Shown piece after piece: positions 3,585-14,016 of a DNA stretch of 36,195 nt; the stretch's first letter is position 1, and every line of letters begins with the position of its first letter. Location of the stretch: the NCBI GenBank assembly GCA_016212165.1, contig JACRGY010000044.1, positions 1-36,195 of the forward strand. Reading direction: 5' to 3'. The translations under genes and the position numbers were made by a program. A model generated the notes under the pieces. It saw only the letters and a list, made by a program, of their open reading frames with translations. It was not told the DNA's origin and made no database searches. The DNA comes from Nitrospirota bacterium. Lineage in GTDB: Bacteria; Nitrospirota; Thermodesulfovibrionia; Thermodesulfovibrionales; UBA1546.

Positions 3585-5411
3585 CTACTCAACCGTAACG
3601 CTCTTGGCAAGATTCCTCGGCTGGTCCACATCGCATCCCCTTAATACTCCGATATGATATGCGAGAAGCTGCAACGGGACCGCCAGCAGAACTGCCATAA
3701 GGAAAGGATTGGTCTCAGGCACAAATATGCAAAAATCCGAACGGCTGAGGACTTCCGTGCTGCTTTCATTTGTTACTGCTATAATCCTGCCGCCCCTGCT
3801 TCTTACTTCTTCTATATTAGACAGCACCTTATCATAAAGCCTGCCCTTTGGCGCCAGAAATACAGACGGGACAGCTTCATCAACAAGGGCTATCGGCCCA
3901 TGTTTCATCTCTCCTGCGGGATAGCCTTCTGCATGGATATAAGATATTTCCTTAAGCTTAAGCGCTCCTTCAAGTGCAATAGGGTAATTTATGCCTCTTC
4001 CAAGATACAGAAAATCATCTGCCTTGAACAGTTCCTTTGCTATACGGGCAATCTCGCCGTCTGCCGTAAGGACCTTCTCTATCATCCCGGGCAGGGAAAG
4101 GAGATCCCTCAGCAGCCCTGTCGTTGAGTCCTTATCCATGGCCCCTTTGAGCCTTGCAAGTCCGATTGCAAAAAGATAGAGCCCGATTATCTGGGTCGTA
4201 AATGCCTTTGTTGATGCAACACCTATCTCAGGGCCTGAATGTGTATAAAAAACAGCTTCAGCCTCCCTTGATGCAGTGCTGCCGACAACATTGCAGATAC
4301 TCAGCACCTTCGCACCGAGCCGTTTTGCTTCTCTTTGAGCTGCAAGGGTATCAGCGGTCTCTCCTGACTGTGTTATGGCTATCAAAAGATTCCTCTGCCC
4401 CACTATTGGATTCCTGTACCTGAACTCTGAGGCTATATCCACCTCTACAGGAATCCTTGCAAGCTCTTCTATCATATATTTCCCGATAAGGGCCGCATGC
4501 CATGATGTGCCGCATGCAACGATAAATATTTTCTCAAGCTCTTTCAAATCCCCTGTATCCATGCCAAACTCATCAATATTCACCTCGCCGCTTTCAGGAT
4601 AAAACCTTCCCCTCATCGTATCGGCAATCGCCCTTGGCTGCTCATATATCTCCTTGAGCATAAAGTGCCTGTAGCCGCCCTTTTCAGCCATGGACGGGCT
4701 CCAGGAAACAGATATAACTTCCTTTTTCACCGGCAAACCAGCGAGAGTTGTTACCATCACGCCGTCTTCCGTCATAACGACCATTTCTCCTTCATCAAGG
4801 AATATCACATCCCTTGAATGACTAAGAAAGGCAGGCACATCGGATGCAAGAAAAAACTCTCCGTCGCCAAGGCCGATGACCAGGGGGCTGTCTTTTTTTA
4901 TTCCAACAATCTTACCGGGCTCCTTCTCATTCATTACCGCAAGGGCATATGCGCCTTTTACTTCACTGAGGGCTCTCCTTACCGCGTCTTCCAAAGGGAA
5001 ATCCTTTGAATACTTTTCAATCAGGTGGCATATAACTTCCGTATCGGTTTCGGATGTAAATTTATATCCTTCTTCTATCAGCTTCTTTTTCAGAGGCAGA
5101 TAATTTTCTATTATCCCGTTATGCACAAGAACTATCCCGTCTGACCTGTGAGGATGCGCGTTCTCTTCCGATGGCTTTCCATGGGTTGCCCACCTGGTAT
5201 GCCCTATTGCCGTATGGCTGAACGGCTTATCAGCCTCCATTACAGAATAAAGGTCTTTTATCTTCCCTGTGCACTTCCTGACCTCTATGCCTTTTTCACG
5301 GAAGAATGCAATTCCTGCTGAATCGTATCCCCTGTATTCAAGGCGTTTGAGCCCGTCAAGGATTATCGGGACCGCATTCTTTTTGCCTGTATAACCTATT
5401 ATCCCGCACAT
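3585..5411 (-). CDS. glmS: Glutamine--fructose-6-phosphate aminotransferase (isomerizing)
   Basis: GlmS makes glucosamine-6-phosphate from fructose-6-phosphate and glutamine, the first step to UDP-GlcNAc for peptidoglycan and lipid A. The 608 residues match the usual length. The N-terminus MCGIIGYTG exposes Cys2, the glutaminase nucleophile, after Met removal. The glutaminase domain includes GHTRWATHG and HNGIIENY. Two SIS domains follow, with ACGTSWHAAL, SQSGETADT and SNIEEV-type segments. The C-terminus DQPRNLAKSVTVE is the classical one carrying the catalytic Lys. It sits just downstream of glmU on the same strand, separated by a 9-mer tandem repeat. I see no strong ribosome-binding site and no glmS ribozyme in the short leader, so regulation is probably not by that route. 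Confidence 0.97.
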   Translation of the reverse strand: MCGIIGYTGKKNAVPIILDGLKRLEYRGYDSAGIAFFREKGIEVRKCTGKIKDLYSVMEADKPFSHTAIGHTRWATHGKPSEENAHPHRSDGIVLVHNGIIENYLPLKKKLIEEGYKFTSETDTEVICHLIEKYSKDFPLEDAVRRALSEVKGAYALAVMNEKEPGKIVGIKKDSPLVIGLGDGEFFLASDVPAFLSHSRDVIFLDEGEMVVMTEDGVMVTTLAGLPVKKEVISVSWSPSMAEKGGYRHFMLKEIYEQPRAIADTMRGRFYPESGEVNIDEFGMDTGDLKELEKIFIVACGTSWHAALIGKYMIEELARIPVEVDIASEFRYRNPIVGQRNLLIAITQSGETADTLAAQREAKRLGAKVLSICNVVGSTASREAEAVFYTHSGPEIGVASTKAFTTQIIGLYLFAIGLARLKGAMDKDSTTGLLRDLLSLPGMIEKVLTADGEIARIAKELFKADDFLYLGRGINYPIALEGALKLKEISYIHAEGYPAGEMKHGPIALVDEAVPSVFLAPKGRLYDKVLSNIEEVRSRGGRIIAVTNESSTEVLSRSDFCIFVPETNPFLMAVLLAVPLQLLAYHIGVLRGCDVDQPRNLAKSVTVE

Positions 5412-5430
5412 ATCAATTTAATAAAGGGTT

Positions 5431-5466
5431 CGATAACCGTTCAAACGGTTTAAACAGTTTAAACCG
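5431..5466. repeat. Tandem array of four 9-mers overlapping the end of glmU
   Basis: On the minus strand the units are CGGTTTAAA, CTGTTTAAA, CCGTTTGAA and CGGTTATCG, exactly contiguous. The first unit supplies the final Val codon and stop of glmU. The array is also partly palindromic because each unit resembles its own reverse complement. Confidence 0.75.
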
Positions 5467-6859
5467 TTTTTTTCGCTTGACCCCTTGAAGCCTTTCCTTT
5501 CCTTTTTTTCGCCCAATCTTTAATGTTCCTCTGCTCGGCCCTGCTCAGTGCAAGTGCCTTTGGAGGAACACTTTTTGTAATCGTAGACCCTGCGCCGATA
5601 TAGGCGTCCCTGCCAACTCTGACAGGCGCAATAAATTGCGTATCACTCCCGACAAATACCCTGTCTTCTATTGTTGTCCTCCGTTTTTCTTTACCGTCAT
5701 AATTACAGGTTATTGTGCCTGCGCCGATATTGACATCATTCCCTATTGAGGCATCTCCCAGATAGCTTAAATGCGATGCCTTTGTTCTTTTGCCTATTAT
5801 GGATTTTTTCACCTCAACAAAATTACCTATCTTGGCCCCGGCGCCTATCTCGCTTCCAGGCCTGATATGCGCAAAAGGCCCAACAACTGCCCCTGCCATT
5901 ACGACAGACCCCTCAATAACTGTTGAATCCTTGATAACAGCTCCATCTTTAACCACGCTGTCTATTATCCTGACATTCGGGTAAATAGTGCACCCTCTGC
6001 CTATTTTTGTTTTGCCTTCAAGAAAGACATCAGGATAAATAGTTGTCCCCTTCCCTATCATAACCTCCGGATAAATAAAGACTGAATCAGAGTCAAAAAA
6101 TGTAATGCCTTTTCCCATCCAGTTATTGATGAGCCTCTTCCTGTATGCCTGCTGTGCCTTTAACAACTCGGGCATTGTGTTAATCCCCATCATCTCATCC
6201 TCGAAACCTATGCAGTATGCCTCTACTTTACAGGCCTTGCTTTTGGCAATGCCGATAATATCAGTAAGGTAGTATTCATTCTTTAAGGTATTAAGCCTGA
6301 TTTCTTTGAGAAGGCCTAAGAGGCCTGATTTAACAGCATATATGCCGCTGTTGACTTCGGTTATCTTTTTCTGAACATCAGTTGCATCTCTTTCTTCTGC
6401 TATTGACAGGATATTGTCTGATTCATCCCTCACAATCCTGCCGTATGCAGCAGGCCTGGCTGCAACAAATGATATAAGTGAAATATCATTATTGCTCTTC
6501 CCGTGCAGTCCGAGAAACTTAAGCAGGGCCTCTGCTGTAACCAAAGGGGCATCTCCATTCAATATGAGTACAGTGCCCTTAAAACCTTCAAGAAATGTCC
6601 TCGCCTTCAGGACTGCATCGCCTGTTCCCTTAGGTTCTTTTTGTATGGCAAATAAAATATTGCTGCCCTTCAAAGTATCCTTTATTTCCTTATACTGCCG
6701 GCCGGCAACAACAATAGTCCTGGAAGGTTTCAGCTTTGAAGCAGAATCAATTACATGCTGAAGCATTGCCTTACCGGATATCTTATGCAGAACCTTCGGC
6801 AGGGCGGAGTTCATCCTTTCACCACGGCCAGCTGCAAGGATAACAACTGCCAATTTCAT
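5459..6859 (-). CDS. glmU: Bifunctional UDP-GlcNAc pyrophosphorylase / GlcN-1-P acetyltransferase
   Basis: GlmU carries out the last two steps to UDP-GlcNAc: acetylation of glucosamine-1-phosphate, then uridylylation. The N-terminal nucleotidyltransferase domain starts with VVILAAGRGERMNS, holds ALPKVLHKISGKAM and has the NGDAPLV metal-binding segment. The C-terminal part is a left-handed beta-helix of hexapeptide repeats ending with YLGDASIG and CNYDGKEKRRT, including the catalytic His in KASHLSYLGD. Length (466) is normal. The Lys/Arg-rich tail (residues ~450-466) is low-complexity, and its end is encoded by the 9-mer array. It overlaps the upstream DUF502 gene by 4 bp (ATGA), so translation is probably coupled. 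Confidence 0.96.
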   Translation of the reverse strand: MKLAVVILAAGRGERMNSALPKVLHKISGKAMLQHVIDSASKLKPSRTIVVAGRQYKEIKDTLKGSNILFAIQKEPKGTGDAVLKARTFLEGFKGTVLILNGDAPLVTAEALLKFLGLHGKSNNDISLISFVAARPAAYGRIVRDESDNILSIAEERDATDVQKKITEVNSGIYAVKSGLLGLLKEIRLNTLKNEYYLTDIIGIAKSKACKVEAYCIGFEDEMMGINTMPELLKAQQAYRKRLINNWMGKGITFFDSDSVFIYPEVMIGKGTTIYPDVFLEGKTKIGRGCTIYPNVRIIDSVVKDGAVIKDSTVIEGSVVMAGAVVGPFAHIRPGSEIGAGAKIGNFVEVKKSIIGKRTKASHLSYLGDASIGNDVNIGAGTITCNYDGKEKRRTTIEDRVFVGSDTQFIAPVRVGRDAYIGAGSTITKSVPPKALALSRAEQRNIKDWAKKRKGKASRGQAKKTV

Positions 6860-7473
6860 TCCTTTGCCTCTAAAATTTTTGCAGGAGCTGCGATGCCGCC
6901 TGAAAGGATTATCTTGACGCCTTCCTCTATTGAGATGTCGGTATAGAAAACATCCTTCTCCGTAAAGAGTATTATCTCACCGAGATACAGGTTATTTGTA
7001 GGGACATATACTGCCCTGAGGCATGTTTCTCTGCCGGAATTATCCGTCTTTATTGTGCTTTCTTTAGTTAAAAAACCAAATGCATAGGAGCCTGCCCTGG
7101 GATATTCAACTATCACAAACTTTTTAAATGAGCTCTTATTCTCAGGTGAAAACGCATCCACCAGCTGTTTTACGGATGAATAAATACCCTTGAATACAGG
7201 CACCCTGACAATAGCCTTCTCAATAAATTCTATTGCCTTTTTACCAAAAACATTTGTTGAAATTATGCCGATAAGTAATATAAGGGTTATTGCTGAGACA
7301 AAACCAAGGCCCGGAACGTGATGTTCAAGGATTTTATCATAAACAGGCCCGAGTATCCCGTCCACAAACTCAAAGAACCAGACAAGAACCAGGGCAGTAA
7401 TTACTGCAGGAATTGATACAATCAGTCCGGCAAGAAATTTTCTTTTAAGAATCGCTCGAATCGAAATTGCCAT
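6856..7473 (-). CDS. DUF502 family membrane protein
   Basis: A 205-residue inner-membrane protein with two predicted hydrophobic helices near residues 12-36 and 55-73. A soluble C-terminal region follows that carries the family's VPVFKGIYSSVKQLVDAFS segment and an AVYVPTNNLYLGEI-type loop. DUF502 proteins are widespread in Gram-negative and deep-branching bacteria but have no established biochemical function. The 4-bp overlap with glmU and the position after yebC place it in an envelope or housekeeping operon. The start at 7473 has only a weak AAAGAG-like site. I infer membrane location from the helices alone. Confidence 0.85.
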   Translation of the reverse strand: MAISIRAILKRKFLAGLIVSIPAVITALVLVWFFEFVDGILGPVYDKILEHHVPGLGFVSAITLILLIGIISTNVFGKKAIEFIEKAIVRVPVFKGIYSSVKQLVDAFSPENKSSFKKFVIVEYPRAGSYAFGFLTKESTIKTDNSGRETCLRAVYVPTNNLYLGEIILFTEKDVFYTDISIEEGVKIILSGGIAAPAKILEAKE

Positions 7474-7541
7474 CTCTTTTTATAATAAATCCATGAACAT
7501 TAATATTGCAAGGCTCATAATTACGGTCAAGTCCTGCACTC

Positions 7542-8297
7542 TCACTTGCTGAGCTTCTCGGCCACTTCATCAGGGATATCAAAATTTGCATATACATTCT
7601 GGACATCTTCGTGGTCTTCAAGCGCATCCATGAGCCTCAGCATCTGCTCCGCAGACTTTCCATCCAGGGCCACATAGTTTTTGGGAAGCATTGTTACTTC
7701 AGCGGATTCGATTGGTATATTTGCCTTCTCGATAGCAGCCTTAACCTCGTTTAAAGCCTCAGGCGCTGTGATTATCTCATAATTGTCCTCCTGAGGATCA
7801 TTTTTCATGTCCTCGGCGCCTGCATCCAGAGCAGCAGACATGAGAGAGTCTTCTGAAGCCTTTGCCTTGTTAACCAATATATAACCCCTCTTGTCAAATA
7901 TCCACGAAACACACCCGGTTTCTCCAAGGCTTCCGCCGCTTTTGGACATCATATGCCTTATCTCCGGAACTGTCCTGTTTTTGTTGTCAGTCATGACCTC
8001 AATAAGCATGGCAACACCTGCAGGCCCATATCCCTCATATACAATTTCCTCGTACGTAACTCCGGGAAGTTCTCCGGTTCCTTTCATAATCGCCCTTTTA
8101 ATATTATCGTGAGGCATATTTACTTCCTTGGCCTTCTCTATTGCGGTGCGCAGCCTGGGGTTGCCTTCGGGATCTCCTCCCCCGAACCTTGCCGCGACCG
8201 ATATCTCTTTTACTATCTTGGTAAAGGCCTTGCCTTTTTTTGCGTCCGTATGGGCCTTTTTATGTTTTATCTGAGACCATTTCGAATGTCCTGACAT
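7542..8297 (-). CDS. yebC: YebC/PmpR family (TACO1-like) protein
   Basis: A 251-residue member of the YebC/PmpR/TACO1 family. The N-terminus [19 protein letters not shown] is diagnostic, followed by the basic segment [12 protein letters not shown]. The rest forms the three-domain fold with conserved [10 protein letters not shown] and [11 protein letters not shown]. Members are described as DNA-binding regulators and, more recently, as factors acting on ribosomes stalled at poly-proline. Which applies here cannot be seen. In many genomes yebC precedes ruvC; here it is followed by DUF502 and glmU instead. It lies 14 bp after the upstream lipoprotein gene. Confidence 0.95.
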
Positions 8298-8311
8298 TAT
8301 GTACCCCCAAC

Positions 8312-8971
8312 TTATTTTTTGAGTTTCTTTATTTCTTCCAGCCTCTTTTGGGAAGTTTCACCTTCCGTGGTTTTCGGGAAGAACTCTATTACTATCTTAT
8401 ACCCCTTCTCTGCTTCTATAAGGTCGCCAAGATTGAACTTTGCTTCAGAAAACATGAACAGATGATATGGCCTGTCAAGCTTCCCTGTGGCGATAAACTT
8501 TTTGACATGCGGCGTAAATATCCTTAGAAGCCTGTCCCACATCTTATTAGCGTAATAAGATTGCCCGAAGGCCTGTTCTATGTTGAACCCGAGCGTGGAA
8601 TCAGGATATCTCCCGAGAAAATCTTTATATAATTTTTCCGCCTTGTCAACTTTTGGGGGCTTGAACTCGTCAATGAGCAAAACAATAAGTCTCCAGTAAG
8701 TTTCTTCAACCAAAGGGACATCTGGATACTTATTTATTATCTCATCATACAAAGCCTCCATCTGCGGAAGTATGGATTGCCTATCCTCTGCTTCCTCTGT
8801 AAGGCTGAGTATCCTGCCAAACAGTTCATTCACCTTTTGCTCCTGCTCTTCAACAGAAGCTTTCTTCCCAGCAGAAAGCGGCTTCTTGTCATCTGTTATT
8901 TTGGGCGGCGTTACGCAAGCAGGGATTAAAAAAAGAAAAATCATGAGACCGGCAAAAAGCGCAGAGCGCAT
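8312..8971 (-). CDS. TPR-like outer-membrane lipoprotein (BamD/YbgF flavour)
   Basis: From the ATG at 8971 the protein has a short basic start, a hydrophobic stretch and LIPAC with Cys19 as the lipidation site, so it should be a lipoprotein of 219 residues. The mature part is helical. It has a linker rich in Lys/Glu, a coiled-coil-like [15 protein letters not shown] and helix pairs ([21 protein letters not shown], then [15 protein letters not shown] and [13 protein letters not shown]) typical of TPR lipoproteins such as BamD. Specific function is not assignable. The frame is open up to an ATG at 9130 that overlaps the upstream regulator's stop, with AAAGGAG 11 bp before it. That longer form would put ~53 residues of repeat-derived sequence before the signal peptide. 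I prefer 8971 because it gives a proper signal peptide, though no ribosome-binding site is visible there. Confidence 0.7.
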
Positions 8972-8985
8972 AGCGCATAGCGTGT
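8958..8985. repeat. Heptamer array across the lipoprotein start codon
   Basis: Four 7-bp units (agcgcag, agcgcat, agcgcat, agcgtgt). On the minus strand two successive units each contain an ATG, at 8978 and 8971, in different frames. The second is the start used for the lipoprotein call. Confidence 0.75.
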
Positions 8986-9018
8986 TACAAAGAAGTGTAT
9001 AAGTATGAGAATCTGATT

Positions 9019-9078
9019 TGTCACTCCGGCTTGTCCGGAGTCCTTCTGAAAAAGGATTCCCGGCAAGCGGGAATGACA
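9019..9078. repeat. Palindromic dRS3-like repeat, copy 1
   Basis: Outer arms tgtcactcc and ggaatgaca are inverted. Inside them are two small hairpins (ctccggcttgtccggag and attcccggcaagcgggaat) joined by a short spacer with ggattcc. It lies between the regulator stop and the lipoprotein signal peptide, inside an open frame. It is the most divergent of the copies in this window. Confidence 0.75.
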
Positions 9079-9126
9079 CCTTACTAATAAACCTCTTAGT
9101 AATTGCAGAAAATATATATTGCGTTT

Positions 9127-10491
9127 TCATTCTATATGATACTCCTTTATCTTAGTCAGCAGTGTTTTGTAACTCACCTGTAAAGCTTCTGCTGCCCTGC
9201 TTTTATTCCCTTTTGTTTCTTTCAATGCCTTTGTTATCCTCTGCGTTTCAGCAATCCTCAGCGCCTCCTTTGACGCATCCTCAAGAGTCCCGTTCATAGG
9301 GAGATTCTTCAACCCGGCTTCCAGGGACAGAGTGCTCAAAGATACATGTCCAGGAGTTATTACCCTGCCGTCACACAATATTATTGCCCGCTCAATCGTA
9401 TTTTCAAGCTCCCTTACATTGCCTTTCCATGAATAGTTAACAAGCATCTCCATAGTCTCATTCGAGATGCTCTTCAATGGAGCTTTAAGTTCTCTGCAGT
9501 ACTTATTAAGGAAAAAGTCTGCAAGTAACGGAATATCCTCTGTTCTTTCCCTGAGCGGAGGAATCATTACAGGAAAAACATTCAGCCTGTAGAACAGGTC
9601 TTCCCTGAACGCCTTTTCCGAAACAGCCTTTTCAAGGTCCTTATTGCTCGCTGCAATAATCCTGACATCTATCTTTATTGTCTTCAATCCTCCAATACGC
9701 TCAATTTCTCCTTCCTGCAAGACCCTGAGCAGCTTGGCCTGAAGCGCAGTGTCCATCTCTCCAATTTCATCGAGAAATATAGTCCCCTTATCAGCAAGTT
9801 CAAACTTTCCCATCTTCCTGAAATCAGCGCCTGTAAATGCGCCTTTTTCGTGTCCGAAGAGTTCAGATTCAAGAAGCTCTCTCGGTATGGCTGCACAGTT
9901 AATCGGCACAAATGGATATTCCCTTCTGGGACTGAGATTATGTATACCCCTTGCAAATAATTCCTTGCCTGTACCGCTCTCACCCAGTATGAGCACTGTC
10001 GTCTTGCTCGGCGCGACCTTCTGAATGTTCTGCGCGACAGTTGTAATTTTTTCACTCTTACCGATAATCCTTGGGATTCCAAGCTGGGCCGAGAATTCTT
10101 CTTTCAAAAGCATATTTTCTGTCATTAGCCTCTGTGTCTCAAGCGCCCTTTTCATAAGCATCAGCAGGTGGTCGGTATCAAAAGGCTTTGTAATAAAATC
10201 AAAGGCCCCCTCTTTCATTGCAATAACAGCAGTCTCAACCGACCCGAATGCTGTCATCACAATTACCGGCGTCAACGGGTTTTCCTCTTTTGCCGCTTTC
10301 AATACATCTATCCCGTCTTTTTTAGGAAGCTTCAGGTCAGTCAAAACCATATCCACCCTATCTTCCTTCAATTTTTTAATTCCCTCAAGCCCGTCCCTTG
10401 CAATGACAGTCCTGTAGCCTTCAGCCTTGAGGGTCTCTTTAAGCATATCTGACATTGATTCTCTGTCTTCGACTATGAGGATTGTTTCCAT
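9127..10491 (-). CDS. NtrC-family sigma-54-dependent response regulator
   Basis: A 454-residue activator with the three NtrC domains. The receiver has acidic E8/D9, the phospho-acceptor Asp52 (VLTDLKLP), Thr80 and Lys102. The AAA+ domain has Walker A GESGTGKE (170-177), the sigma-54 contact loop GAFTGA (217-222), Walker B TIFLDE (237-242) and an R-finger region [13 protein letters not shown]. The C-terminal Fis-type helix-turn-helix is at ~[20 protein letters not shown]. All key residues are present, so it should activate sigma-54 promoters when phosphorylated. No sensor kinase is adjacent, making it an orphan in this window. It is translationally close to the downstream lipoprotein frame (ATGA at 9127-9130). 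A perfect sigma-54 promoter lies 2.4 kb away at lpxC; whether this protein acts there is unknown. Confidence 0.95.
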
Positions 10492-11456: not shown

Positions 11457-12839
11457 ATGTTAGACAATACATTTCTCCAAGAAATACTTAAAAAAACCCT
11501 CTCTTCAGGCGGGGAATATGCCGATGTGTTCGTTGAGCGCAGAAAACCGACATCCATCCAGCTTGAAGACGATAAAATAGAAAAAATATTCACAGGCATT
11601 GATTCAGGAGTTGGTATAAGGCTTATCGCAAATAGCAAGACCTTCTATGCCTTCAGCAATGACCTGTCTGAAAAGGCATTATTGGAAATTGCAGACAGCC
11701 TGACAAAGGCATCCAAATCCCCCCAAAAGGACATAACCCTAGACCTCAGGAAACAAAGGCCTGAGGTAAACTTCAGCATAAAATTAATCCCTGAAACTGT
11801 TCCTATGGATAAAAAAATAGAGCTTGTCAGATCTGCAAACAAGGCTGCGCGTGATTTTGACAAAAGAATTAAACAGGTAATTGTAATGTACCGGGATTCT
11901 GTACAAAAAGTTCAGATAGCAACATCAGAAGGTTTCATAGCAGAGGATGAACGCATTCATACCCTTATGGTCGCCCACGTAATCGCATCTGATAACGGAG
12001 TAATCCAGACCGGATACGAGCCGGCAGGAGGCCTGATAGGCTTTGAACTCTTTGAAAATATAAAACCGGAAGAGCTTGCCTTAACAGCAGCGCGGCGCGC
12101 AACAATGATACTTACGGCAAGAAGGGCTCCCGGAGGAAGAATGCCTGTTGTAATATCATCCAATGCCGGCGGCACAATGATACACGAAGCCATAGGCCAC
12201 GGCCTTGAGGCTGACCTTGCACAGCAGGGCCTTTCAGTATATTCAAATAAGGCAGGCGAAATGGTAGCATCGCCTTTGATCACTGTTCTTGATGATGCCA
12301 CTATTCCAAATAAAAGAGGCTCTTTCAGATTTGATGACGAAGGAACACCTTCACAAAGAACAGTCCTTGTTAAAAACGGGGTGCTGACAGGTTATATGTA
12401 TGACAATTATACTGCCATGCAGGACAAAACAAGGTCCACAGGCAACGGGCGCAGGGAGTCCTATCACAGCAGGCCGATTCCGAGAATGACCAATACATTT
12501 ATAGCGTCAGGGGAATCTCTGCCTGAAGACGTTCTAAAGTCTACAACTAAAGGCCTTTTCGTTAAAAAAATGGGCGGCGGCCAAGTTAATACAGTAACCG
12601 GAGATTTTGTTTTTGAGGTACAGGAGGGCTATATAATTGACAATGGAAGGATTGGAGAGCCGGTGAGAGGGGCTACGCTCACAGGCAATGGCCCGGAAGT
12701 GCTGAAATCCATTGATAGGGTCGGCTCTGACATGGGGTTTTCAATAGGAACATGCGGGAAGGACAACCAGGGAGTGCCTGTATCAGATGCAATGCCTACA
12801 ATAAGAATACCTGAAATTGTTGTAGGCGGCGAGGCATAG
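11457..12839 (+). CDS. tldD: TldD metalloprotease
   Basis: TldD, with TldE/PmbA, forms a heterodimeric zinc protease that acts on unfolded peptides, matures microcin B17-like products and affects the CcdA antitoxin in E. coli. The 460-residue protein carries the zinc-binding HEAIGH (243-248). Nearby are GLEADLA and the conserved C-terminal blocks GRRESYHSRPIPRMTNTF and MGGGQVNTVTGDFVFEV. A GGAGG site lies 7 bp before the ATG. tldE is not in the window. The gene is divergent from the phosphorylase and 120 bp upstream of lpxC, with a sigma-54 promoter between. I see no peptide-precursor gene nearby that would be an obvious substrate. Confidence 0.95.
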   Translation: MLDNTFLQEILKKTLSSGGEYADVFVERRKPTSIQLEDDKIEKIFTGIDSGVGIRLIANSKTFYAFSNDLSEKALLEIADSLTKASKSPQKDITLDLRKQRPEVNFSIKLIPETVPMDKKIELVRSANKAARDFDKRIKQVIVMYRDSVQKVQIATSEGFIAEDERIHTLMVAHVIASDNGVIQTGYEPAGGLIGFELFENIKPEELALTAARRATMILTARRAPGGRMPVVISSNAGGTMIHEAIGHGLEADLAQQGLSVYSNKAGEMVASPLITVLDDATIPNKRGSFRFDDEGTPSQRTVLVKNGVLTGYMYDNYTAMQDKTRSTGNGRRESYHSRPIPRMTNTFIASGESLPEDVLKSTTKGLFVKKMGGGQVNTVTGDFVFEVQEGYIIDNGRIGEPVRGATLTGNGPEVLKSIDRVGSDMGFSIGTCGKDNQGVPVSDAMPTIRIPEIVVGGEA

Positions 12840-12929
12840 CCTGTTAATAGTGTGTTGATAACTACACATCTGATGAATATAAACAACACCTTTTATCCGT
12901 AAATCCCTTGATTTTAAAAAAAAATTATC

Positions 12930-12945
12930 TGGCACTCTATTTGCA
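12930..12945 (+). promoter_or_regulatory. Sigma-54 (-24/-12) promoter for lpxC
   Basis: TGGCAC-TCTAT-TTGCA matches the sigma-54 consensus, with GG at 12931-12932 and GC at 12943-12944 separated by exactly 10 bp. The start point expected 12 bp past the GC is near 12956, only about 4 bases before the lpxC ATG. An A-tract lies just upstream. Confidence 0.75.
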
Positions 12946-12959
12946 TTCATTTAACGGTC

Positions 12960-13838
12960 ATGCGTTTGCAAAGAACAATAAAACAGGAAGTGAGCTTCGA
13001 AGGCATAGGGCTTCATACAGGTAACCATGTCAACGTACAACTCAAGCCTGCATCGAGAGATACCGGCATTATTTTCCATAGAATAGACAAAAATGTAATG
13101 ATAAGGGCGCATGTAGGCGAAGTTTCAGACACTGCGTTTGCAACAAGTCTCGGCTCTAATGGCACAAGAATAAAGACCGTTGAGCATATCCTTGCAGCAA
13201 TATCAGGACTTGGGATAGATAATCTTGTTATTGAGATGGATGGCTCTGAGGTACCAATTCTTGACGGCAGTTCTACTGAACTTATTGCTCTAATCCTGAA
13301 AGGCGGAATCGCAAAACAGGGCAAAAAAAGGCCGTATCTGCGTATTGTAAAGCCTGTTGTTCTCGAGGACGGGCATTCTGAGATTGCTGCCTTTCCGTAT
13401 GAGGGCAGAAAAATTACTTACAGAATACATTTCAATCACCACCTTTTAGGCGAACAAAGGCTGAGTATTGAACTCAACGAGGAAACCTTCATAAAAGAAG
13501 TGGCCCCGGCAAGGACCTTCGGGTTTTTAAAGGATGTAGAATATCTGAGGGCAAACGGCCTTGTAAAGGGCGGCTCGCTGGATAATGCTATAATCCTTGG
13601 AGACAACGGGGTAATTAACAAAACAGGCCTGAGGTTCAAAGATGAATTTGTAAGGCATAAAATACTTGATTTTATTGGAGATTTCTCCCTGATAGGGTTT
13701 CCTGTGCACGGCCATATAATAGCAAACAGGGCAGGACATTCAACGAACATAAAGTTTATAAAGAAACTGCTTTCAGCTACGGATTGCTGGGAAATTGTAT
13801 CAGATGTTGAGCATGCCCAGGCACTGACTTACTCATAA
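12960..13838 (+). CDS. lpxC: UDP-3-O-acyl-N-acetylglucosamine deacetylase
   Basis: LpxC is the zinc deacetylase that commits UDP-GlcNAc to lipid A synthesis. The 292 residues begin with the typical RTIKQEVSFEGIGLHTG. Zinc ligands are visible as His76 (TVEHILAA), His233 and Asp237 (RHKILDFIGD), with the catalytic His260 (AGHSTN). Glu75 next to His76 is the expected general base. The C-terminus is shorter than in E. coli (305), so the degradation tag recognised by FtsH there need not exist here. The ATG at 12960 has no Shine-Dalgarno and sits about 4 bases from the predicted sigma-54 start point. Readthrough from tldD is also possible. The gene is followed by a strong dyad region at 13911-13950. 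Confidence 0.96.
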   Translation: MRLQRTIKQEVSFEGIGLHTGNHVNVQLKPASRDTGIIFHRIDKNVMIRAHVGEVSDTAFATSLGSNGTRIKTVEHILAAISGLGIDNLVIEMDGSEVPILDGSSTELIALILKGGIAKQGKKRPYLRIVKPVVLEDGHSEIAAFPYEGRKITYRIHFNHHLLGEQRLSIELNEETFIKEVAPARTFGFLKDVEYLRANGLVKGGSLDNAIILGDNGVINKTGLRFKDEFVRHKILDFIGDFSLIGFPVHGHIIANRAGHSTNIKFIKKLLSATDCWEIVSDVEHAQALTYS

Positions 13839-13971: not shown

Positions 13972-14016
13972 TTATTTCTTTTTCTTCTTTGCTGCTGCTT
14001 TCTTCTTAGCTGCCAT
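13972..14016 (-). CDS. 14-residue Lys/Ala-rich peptide
   Basis: A tiny ORF reads MAAKKKAAAKKKKK followed by TAA. It has a strong GGGGGTGA ribosome-binding site 7 bp before the ATG and lies directly upstream of a clear terminator, in the same direction as the regulator at 14633. Composition (nine Lys, four Ala) resembles the tails of histone H1-like proteins, so nucleic-acid binding is conceivable. It is far too short for family assignment and could be a leader peptide or a remnant. The evidence for translation is only the site strength and placement. Confidence 0.4.
   Translation of the reverse strand: MAAKKKAAAKKKKK

Follow-up and report, generated by a model that had tools for sequence, protein, structure and literature searches.

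The lpxC locus and its upstream elements

The window, that is, the whole stretch of DNA that was analyzed, comprised 36,195 nt of contig JACRGY010000044.1 (assembly GCA_016212165.1) from an uncultured Nitrospirota bacterium (UBA1546). The genes and sites considered here are listed in Table 1. The ORF at 12960-13838, whose ATG at 12960 was given as that of lpxC in the original prediction, was confirmed as lpxC by the domain matches (Pfam LpxC, 1.3e-104; NCBIfam lpxC, 312 bits against a cut-off of 187), and the genome carried one copy of the gene. Divergent from tldD and lpxC, the minus-strand region 3585-10491 contained co-directional genes for an NtrC-type activator, a TPR protein with weak similarity to YbgF/BamD, YebC, DUF502, GlmU, and GlmS, and was read as a UDP-GlcNAc supply cluster having its own sigma-54 activator.

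Table 1. Positions of the lpxC control elements and of the genes discussed in the text
Feature	Position	Strand	Evidence or remark
UAS copy 1, GTGTGTTGATAACTACACAT, near-palindrome TGTGT-N8-ACACA	12850-12869	+	Best position in the window, 18.5 bits with the class matrix, whose training set included this copy
UAS copy 2, CTGATGAATATAAACAACAC	12870-12889	+	Abuts copy 1 (20 bp phase); second-best position in the window, 12.5 bits with the same matrix
Sigma-54 -24/-12 element, TGGCACTCTATTTGCA	12930-12945	+	Exact match unique in the window; conserved in two phyla
Predicted transcription start and 4-nt leader GGTC	12956 (+/-1-2); leader 12956-12959	+	Placed 12 nt past the -12 C
lpxC, UDP-3-O-acyl-GlcNAc deacetylase, 292 aa, ATG	12960-13838	+	PF03331 and TIGR00325 above cut-off
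tldD, possible source of read-through into lpxC	11457-12839	+	PmbA/TldD Pfam domains
NtrC-type sigma-54 activator, rival lpxC regulator	9127-10491	-	Receiver, AAA, and Fis HTH domains; GAFTGA
NtrX-like response regulator	L418:7279-8625 (G000:C182)		GSFTGA; reciprocal best hits in five distant genomes

The -24/-12 element was the sole exact match to TGGCAC-N5-TTGCA in the window, with the GG at 12931-12932 and the GC at 12943-12944 in GG-N10-GC spacing, just as had been proposed. With two mismatches allowed, the window contained 15 matches against 11.9 expected by chance, so only the exact match was informative. In the 2.79-Mb genome, the pattern TGGCAY-N5-TTGCW occurred 10 times and a control pattern once, and rpoN was present in one copy.

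Conservation of the promoter in two phyla

The DNA upstream of lpxC was compared among 150/188 Nitrospirota genomes with an LpxC match, 70 named loci, and the rest of the window's own family. The named loci were 70 of 72, with L067 and L088 beginning inside the gene. Identical upstream sequences were merged, the named and sampled sets partly overlapped, and the class, phylum, and Desulfobacterota labels of the loci were inferred assignments. The Desulfobacterota sample consisted of the best 30 of 115 lpxC loci and therefore leans to the nearest LpxC. A promoter match was defined as a score of at least 17 of 20.4 within 200 nt upstream of lpxC, and dinucleotide shuffles and the opposite strand served as controls. 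Matches were found at 59 of the 67 distinct loci of the window's class (1.5 in shuffles, 4 on the opposite strand) and at 81/82 lpxC loci of other Nitrospirota (1.8 and 0). The named loci gave 66/70 (1.4 and 0), and all 10 further members of the own family had one (0.2 and 0). Among the best 30 of the 115 Desulfobacterota loci, 28 carried the match (0.3 and 0).

The original prediction had named loss of the GG and GC bases in relatives as its own refutation. Both were kept in 222/236 loci: 112/124 in the class, 82/82 in other Nitrospirota, and 28 of the best 30 of 115 in Desulfobacterota; the spacer between them was variable. The best site at each locus was picked by a score that favors GG and GC, a bias shared by the shuffles, which remained low. 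The exceptions in the class were mostly Thermodesulfovibrio-like genomes with TTGT or TTGA at -12. Outside these counts, L089-L094 had sites scoring 17.5-19.7, and the acidobacterial loci L095 and L096 scored 15.0 and 17.4. On this evidence from sequence comparison, the predicted sigma-54 promoter of lpxC is almost certainly real.

A tandem palindrome upstream of the promoter

The 40-bp block upstream of the promoter was near-invariant in the window's own family, even where the DNA further upstream differed. The only exact match to TGTGTTGATAAYNACACA in the genome was the one at lpxC; the other matches carried 3 mismatches and were near the control level. This single exact match suggests that the regulator acts mainly or exclusively on lpxC. 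A matrix of the palindrome TGTGT-N8-ACACA was trained on 111 class loci, and the 99% shuffle level was taken as the threshold, which 99 of the 111 training loci exceeded. The same was true of 11 of the 12 held-out class loci, all 12 of which had been set aside by eye as lacking the palindrome. Among loci not used in training, 48/82 from other Nitrospirota and 21/29 from Desulfobacterota were above the threshold, and 34/82 of the former were below it. EM searches were run at motif widths of 14-20, and at some of these the same half-sites were recovered at other offsets. EM on Desulfobacterota alone gave no clear motif, and in that phylum the palindrome was seen only with the trained matrix.

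The center of the palindrome lay at -126 to -161 in the 11 held-out class loci, whereas most class loci had it near -50 or -70, and in a group of loci carrying an activator gene of the 9127-10491 type it was located about 90 bp further upstream. A palindrome whose sequence is kept while its distance to the promoter varies is expected of an enhancer for a looping activator. A conserved palindrome tolerant of distance change, as expected 50-200 bp upstream of such a promoter, was thus found, and it very probably represents the enhancer of lpxC. The earlier suggestion that a sigma-54 activator governs lpxC was thereby supported, as the conserved enhancer-like palindrome would supply the second element that such an activator needs.

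The same block also contained a sigma-70-like sequence, TTGATA-N17-TATAAA, at 12855-12883, which overlapped both enhancer copies and matched at 10 of 12 positions. LpxC is normally essential, and lpxC could be transcribed mainly from a housekeeping promoter of this kind or by read-through from tldD, with the sigma-54 site as a conditional boost. No terminator-like site was found between tldD and lpxC when 12700-13100 was scanned, and a sigma-70-like site overlapping the enhancer was present in 6 of 10 further own-family loci versus 1.4 expected. Against this, the site was absent in 6 of 8 loci inspected singly, was near chance beyond the class (6/82 versus 4.4 and 1/30 versus 2.6), and in a stricter scan no plus-strand sigma-70-like site appeared there. 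A sigma-70 promoter inside the enhancer block was accordingly rejected as a shared feature, being present in the window and not conserved. The overlap would equally fit a dual design. At E. coli glnA, a single activator both represses one promoter and turns on the other; the sequence at 12855-12883 could likewise serve for basal transcription and be shut off by the activator as it turns on the sigma-54 promoter. Predominantly housekeeping or read-through transcription of lpxC is less likely than not.

Candidate activators

After three additional hits that were weak or partial had been set aside, the genome contained 22 full-length sigma-54 activator ATPase genes. Among their products, the NtrX-like protein alone had a reciprocal best hit in each of G025, G115, G225, G077, and G169; the comparison took in 15 of the roughly 25 activators of G169 and 7/8 of G025. 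Its recognition-helix motif was present in all six NtrX-like orthologs, whereas the other 73 activators all lacked it; of the 29 NtrX-like proteins of Desulfobacterota, 11 had no such motif. The protein scored 513 bits against the NCBIfam NtrX model (NF051870), the best among the NCBIfam models shown and below the cut-off of 600, and is therefore called NtrX-like. Just upstream of its gene, in the adjacent arrangement of an NtrYX pair, lay a gene for an NtrY-like kinase with HAMP, PAS, HisKA, and HATPase domains, and a DUF4390 protein gene adjoined. A homologous kinase stood beside the NtrX-like gene in each of the five distant genomes. An NtrY_N domain was found in two Desulfobacterota kinases, and the kinase of the window's genome had no NtrY_N match at 1e-8.

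Linkage of this pair to lpxC was seen in Desulfobacterota. Among the genomes of the best 30 of 115 loci, 29 contained an NtrX-like protein (52-60% identity). Its gene was on the lpxC contig in 10 of the 30, and in 9 of them lpxC, the NtrY-like kinase gene, and the NtrX-like gene followed in line on one strand, with DUF4390 between lpxC and the kinase gene at 5 of the 9 linked loci. The sole genome of the 30 lacking an NtrX-like protein, G263, was also the one whose lpxC had no promoter match of at least 16 (13.8). Taken together, orthology and linkage make the NtrX-like protein a reasonably likely candidate for the lpxC activator. No strong palindrome indicating autoregulation of ntrYX was found in the surrounding 16 kb (best, 10.6 bits). 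Directly after the NtrX-like gene, L418:8661-10217 encoded a 518-aa TPR protein with a hydrophobic N-terminus; the short flanking sequences of five relatives showed no homolog of it.

The same promoter and enhancer could instead be served by the NtrC-type protein encoded at 9127-10491, clustered with glmU and glmS. Such a gene was near lpxC in 30 of the 95 loci searched, the protein had an ortholog-level match in 42/50 genomes, and the adjoining genes supply the LpxC pathway with its precursor. This protein was the first choice by synteny and was demoted when no reciprocal best hit was found in two Thermodesulfovibrio-like genomes and one Nitrospira-like genome (G115, G225, and G169), all of which retain the lpxC promoter; palindrome-like sequence was visible by eye in the two Thermodesulfovibrio-like ones. 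In addition, the short flanking sequences of the 30 Desulfobacterota lpxC loci contained no activator of this type, and at 9 of these loci the NtrX-like gene was linked instead. Its role as the lpxC activator is therefore rather improbable. Flagellar and NifA-type activators were also considered and rejected: L097 was NifA-like, and L099, L102, and L110 had matches in some distant genomes that were not reciprocal in all five.

A predicted near-leaderless lpxC message

With C12944 as the -12 base, the computed start was 12956, leaving 4 nt before the ATG. The longest Shine-Dalgarno match upstream of lpxC was 3 nt, confirming the earlier statement that the gene lacks one, whereas matches of at least 4 nt preceded 17 of the 27 genes in the window. 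Four other TGGCAY-N5-TTGCW sites of the genome were located within 40 nt of an ORF start, one of these ORFs starting like NifH. Their leaders were 21, 22, 29, and 34 nt, each with a purine-rich SD-like stretch, and a 4-nt leader was found at lpxC only. On account of these longer leaders and SD-like stretches, lpxC stands out even among the candidate sigma-54 genes of its own genome.

In the window's class, the predicted leader was 2-11 nt at 62/67 loci, mostly without an SD and with ATG. The median leader was 22 nt in other Nitrospirota, where an SD was present in 71/73 long leaders, and 26 nt in Desulfobacterota (best 30 of 115 loci), where it was present in 24/25. Nine other Nitrospirota beyond the class had short leaders, none with an SD. 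When the named and sampled sets were merged to 232 distinct loci, the SD was absent in 115/122 short-leader genes and present in 96/110 long-leader genes; the loci are related, so these leader, SD, and ATG counts are not independent events. Leaderless translation prefers AUG. ATG was the start codon in 118/122 short-leader lpxC genes, and at a GC content of 0.45-0.55 it was used in 35/36 short-leader versus 13/40 long-leader genes. The roughly 4-base leader of the original prediction is thus backed by a class-wide link among a short predicted leader, the lack of an SD, and ATG, and from the promoter position the lpxC message is likely to be near-leaderless throughout the window's class.

The link between leader and SD was imperfect: 13 class loci had longer leaders (21-142 nt), and 11 of these were likewise without an SD. 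Such leaders of 26-142 nt, mostly without an SD, were seen at L070, L071, L073, L076, L028, L031, L032, L037, and L044. The SD-less long leaders of the class look as if they had been lengthened from a near-leaderless ancestor. The predicted +1 base of the 122 short leaders was T in 50, A in 43, G in 16, and C in 13, and with mostly T or A the exact starts are uncertain.

The promoter could also be right and the mRNA not near-leaderless, if the start codon lay downstream or initiation were shifted upstream. A TTG occurs at lpxC codon 3 (12966), and sigma-54 starts can move by 1-2 nt. This TTG is likewise without an SD, alignments with almost all close relatives begin at residue 1 of LpxC, and a shift of 1-2 nt would alter nothing essential, which leaves this explanation quite improbable.

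Comparison with known systems

Control of LpxC is mainly known as the FtsH/LapB proteolysis of E. coli; this acts on LpxC stability and not on transcription. FtsH proteolysis of LpxC is also described in the available text of PMC12444477. Control of lpxC by sigma-54 is not new: the available text of PMC3333781 reports it in D. vulgaris, and a sigma-54 promoter has been predicted in Leptospira. In D. vulgaris, DVU2934 binds upstream of the lpxC gene DVU2917, its single target, and its motif was found at lpxC in only two others, D. vulgaris Miyazaki and D. desulfuricans G20 (PMC3333781). In the available part of PMC4641369, DVU2934 appears as a GAFTGA regulator, with lipid A biosynthesis as the process it controls. 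As with this NtrC-type sigma-54 regulator, whose sole target is lpxC, the enhancer described here has its one exact genome match at lpxC. The operon of the orthologous regulator in S. fumaroxidans is directly preceded by lpxC, and the authors raised the possibility that the target had been retained and the motif changed (PMC3333781). The lpxC-ntrY-ntrX arrangement in 9/30 Desulfobacterota genomes resembles the S. fumaroxidans linkage and fits this suggestion; kinship of DVU2934 to the NtrX-like protein is inferred from the S. fumaroxidans remark in that paper. Unlike the D. vulgaris report, which describes an HD-GYP regulator in the operon (PMC3333781), no such regulator was seen here. The available text of PMC3333781 had no mention of leader length or of Nitrospirota for the DVU2934 regulator, and its main text did not give the letters of the D. 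vulgaris motif.

The lpxC mRNA of R. sphaeroides rises 8.8-fold when NtrYX is lost, an effect judged indirect by the authors (PMC7240162), and a review reports NtrYX effects on lpxC (PMC12444477), both as far as the accessible text goes. An NtrYX-type pair acting on envelope genes and on the lpxC transcript level is common to the alphaproteobacterial case and the present one. In alphaproteobacteria, however, NtrYX lowers lpxC mRNA, indirectly in R. sphaeroides, and has a broad regulon, whereas the prediction here is of direct activation, through a sigma-54 promoter that has its own dedicated palindrome. The NtrX motif GCA-N9-TGC, proposed for alphaproteobacteria, was unlike the TGTGT-N8-ACACA palindrome and was set aside.

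In Leptospira, a putative sigma-54 promoter upstream of lpxC, predicted by software, resembles the present one, but no enhancer or leader is described for it in the accessible text of PMC12655853. In Deinococcus-Thermus, leaderless mRNAs are found next to -10 elements (PMC12340547, available text), so that the promoter abuts the start codon as it does here; those promoters use -10 regions, unlike the activator-dependent sigma-54 promoter predicted for lpxC. Elsewhere, there was no lpx hit in the available part of a paper on sigma-54 and the bacterial exterior (PMC3162934), no hit for Nitrospir, lipid A, or lpx in PMC12316311, no lpxC hit in PMC5243855, no occurrence of sigma54 in the available text of PMC12444477, and no sigma54, RpoN, or Desulfovibrio in the main text of a 2025 review of lipid A regulation. 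No report of sigma-54 control of Nitrospirota lpxC, or of a leaderless lpxC, was recognized in searches of the open-licence PMC literature. What is new here is the breadth of the promoter, the shared palindromic enhancer, the near-leaderless class, and the NtrYX-like candidate activator.

Proposed mechanism

In the mechanism we propose, sigma-54 RNA polymerase would transcribe lpxC from the element at 12930-12945. An activator bound to the tandem palindromes at 12850-12889 would loop over and open the promoter; this activator would most likely be the NtrX-like protein, paired with the NtrY-like kinase encoded just upstream of it. An envelope signal may in this way be turned into a transcriptional switch of lipid A commitment, and the message of the class would start 2-11 nt before the AUG and be translated in leaderless fashion without a Shine-Dalgarno sequence. 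The promoter, the enhancer motif, their conservation, the short distance to the start codon, the lack of an SD, and the conserved NtrYX-like pair are established at the level of sequence. The scheme as a whole, with sigma-54 promoter, tandem enhancer, NtrX-like activator, and near-leaderless class message, is favored on balance. That the -24/-12 match is a chance or non-functional resemblance, as might be argued from one 16-mer in a 36-kb window and from two-mismatch counts at the chance level, is scarcely credible given conservation in two phyla many times above the shuffles with constant GG and GC and a variable spacer.

A broader reading is more tentative, with slightly less than an even chance of being right. 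The NtrYX-type pair would be an ancient, dedicated lpxC switch in Nitrospirota and Desulfobacterota acting through one palindrome, sigma-54 and the activator would be effectively essential, this essential gene would in one class be read from a near-leaderless message, and the effects of alphaproteobacterial NtrYX on lpxC would be an altered relic. With an activator-dependent lpxC switch conserved in two phyla, lipid A supply would be wired to a signal through sigma-54, rpoN may be essential in these bacteria, and NtrYX, whose role is disputed, would gain a concrete function. The loci would also provide a natural experiment in which lpxC moved between SD-led and near-leaderless translation while the same promoter was kept.

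Opposite-strand reading frames downstream of lpxC

An antisense mini-ORF encoding MAAKKKAAAKKKKK was located just past lpxC at 13972-14016 on the minus strand, with an equivalent place in L002-L081. More generally, an opposite-strand Lys/Ala/Pro-rich, histone-H1-like ORF of 13 to about 70 aa was found at most 500 nt after lpxC in 67 of 92 loci.
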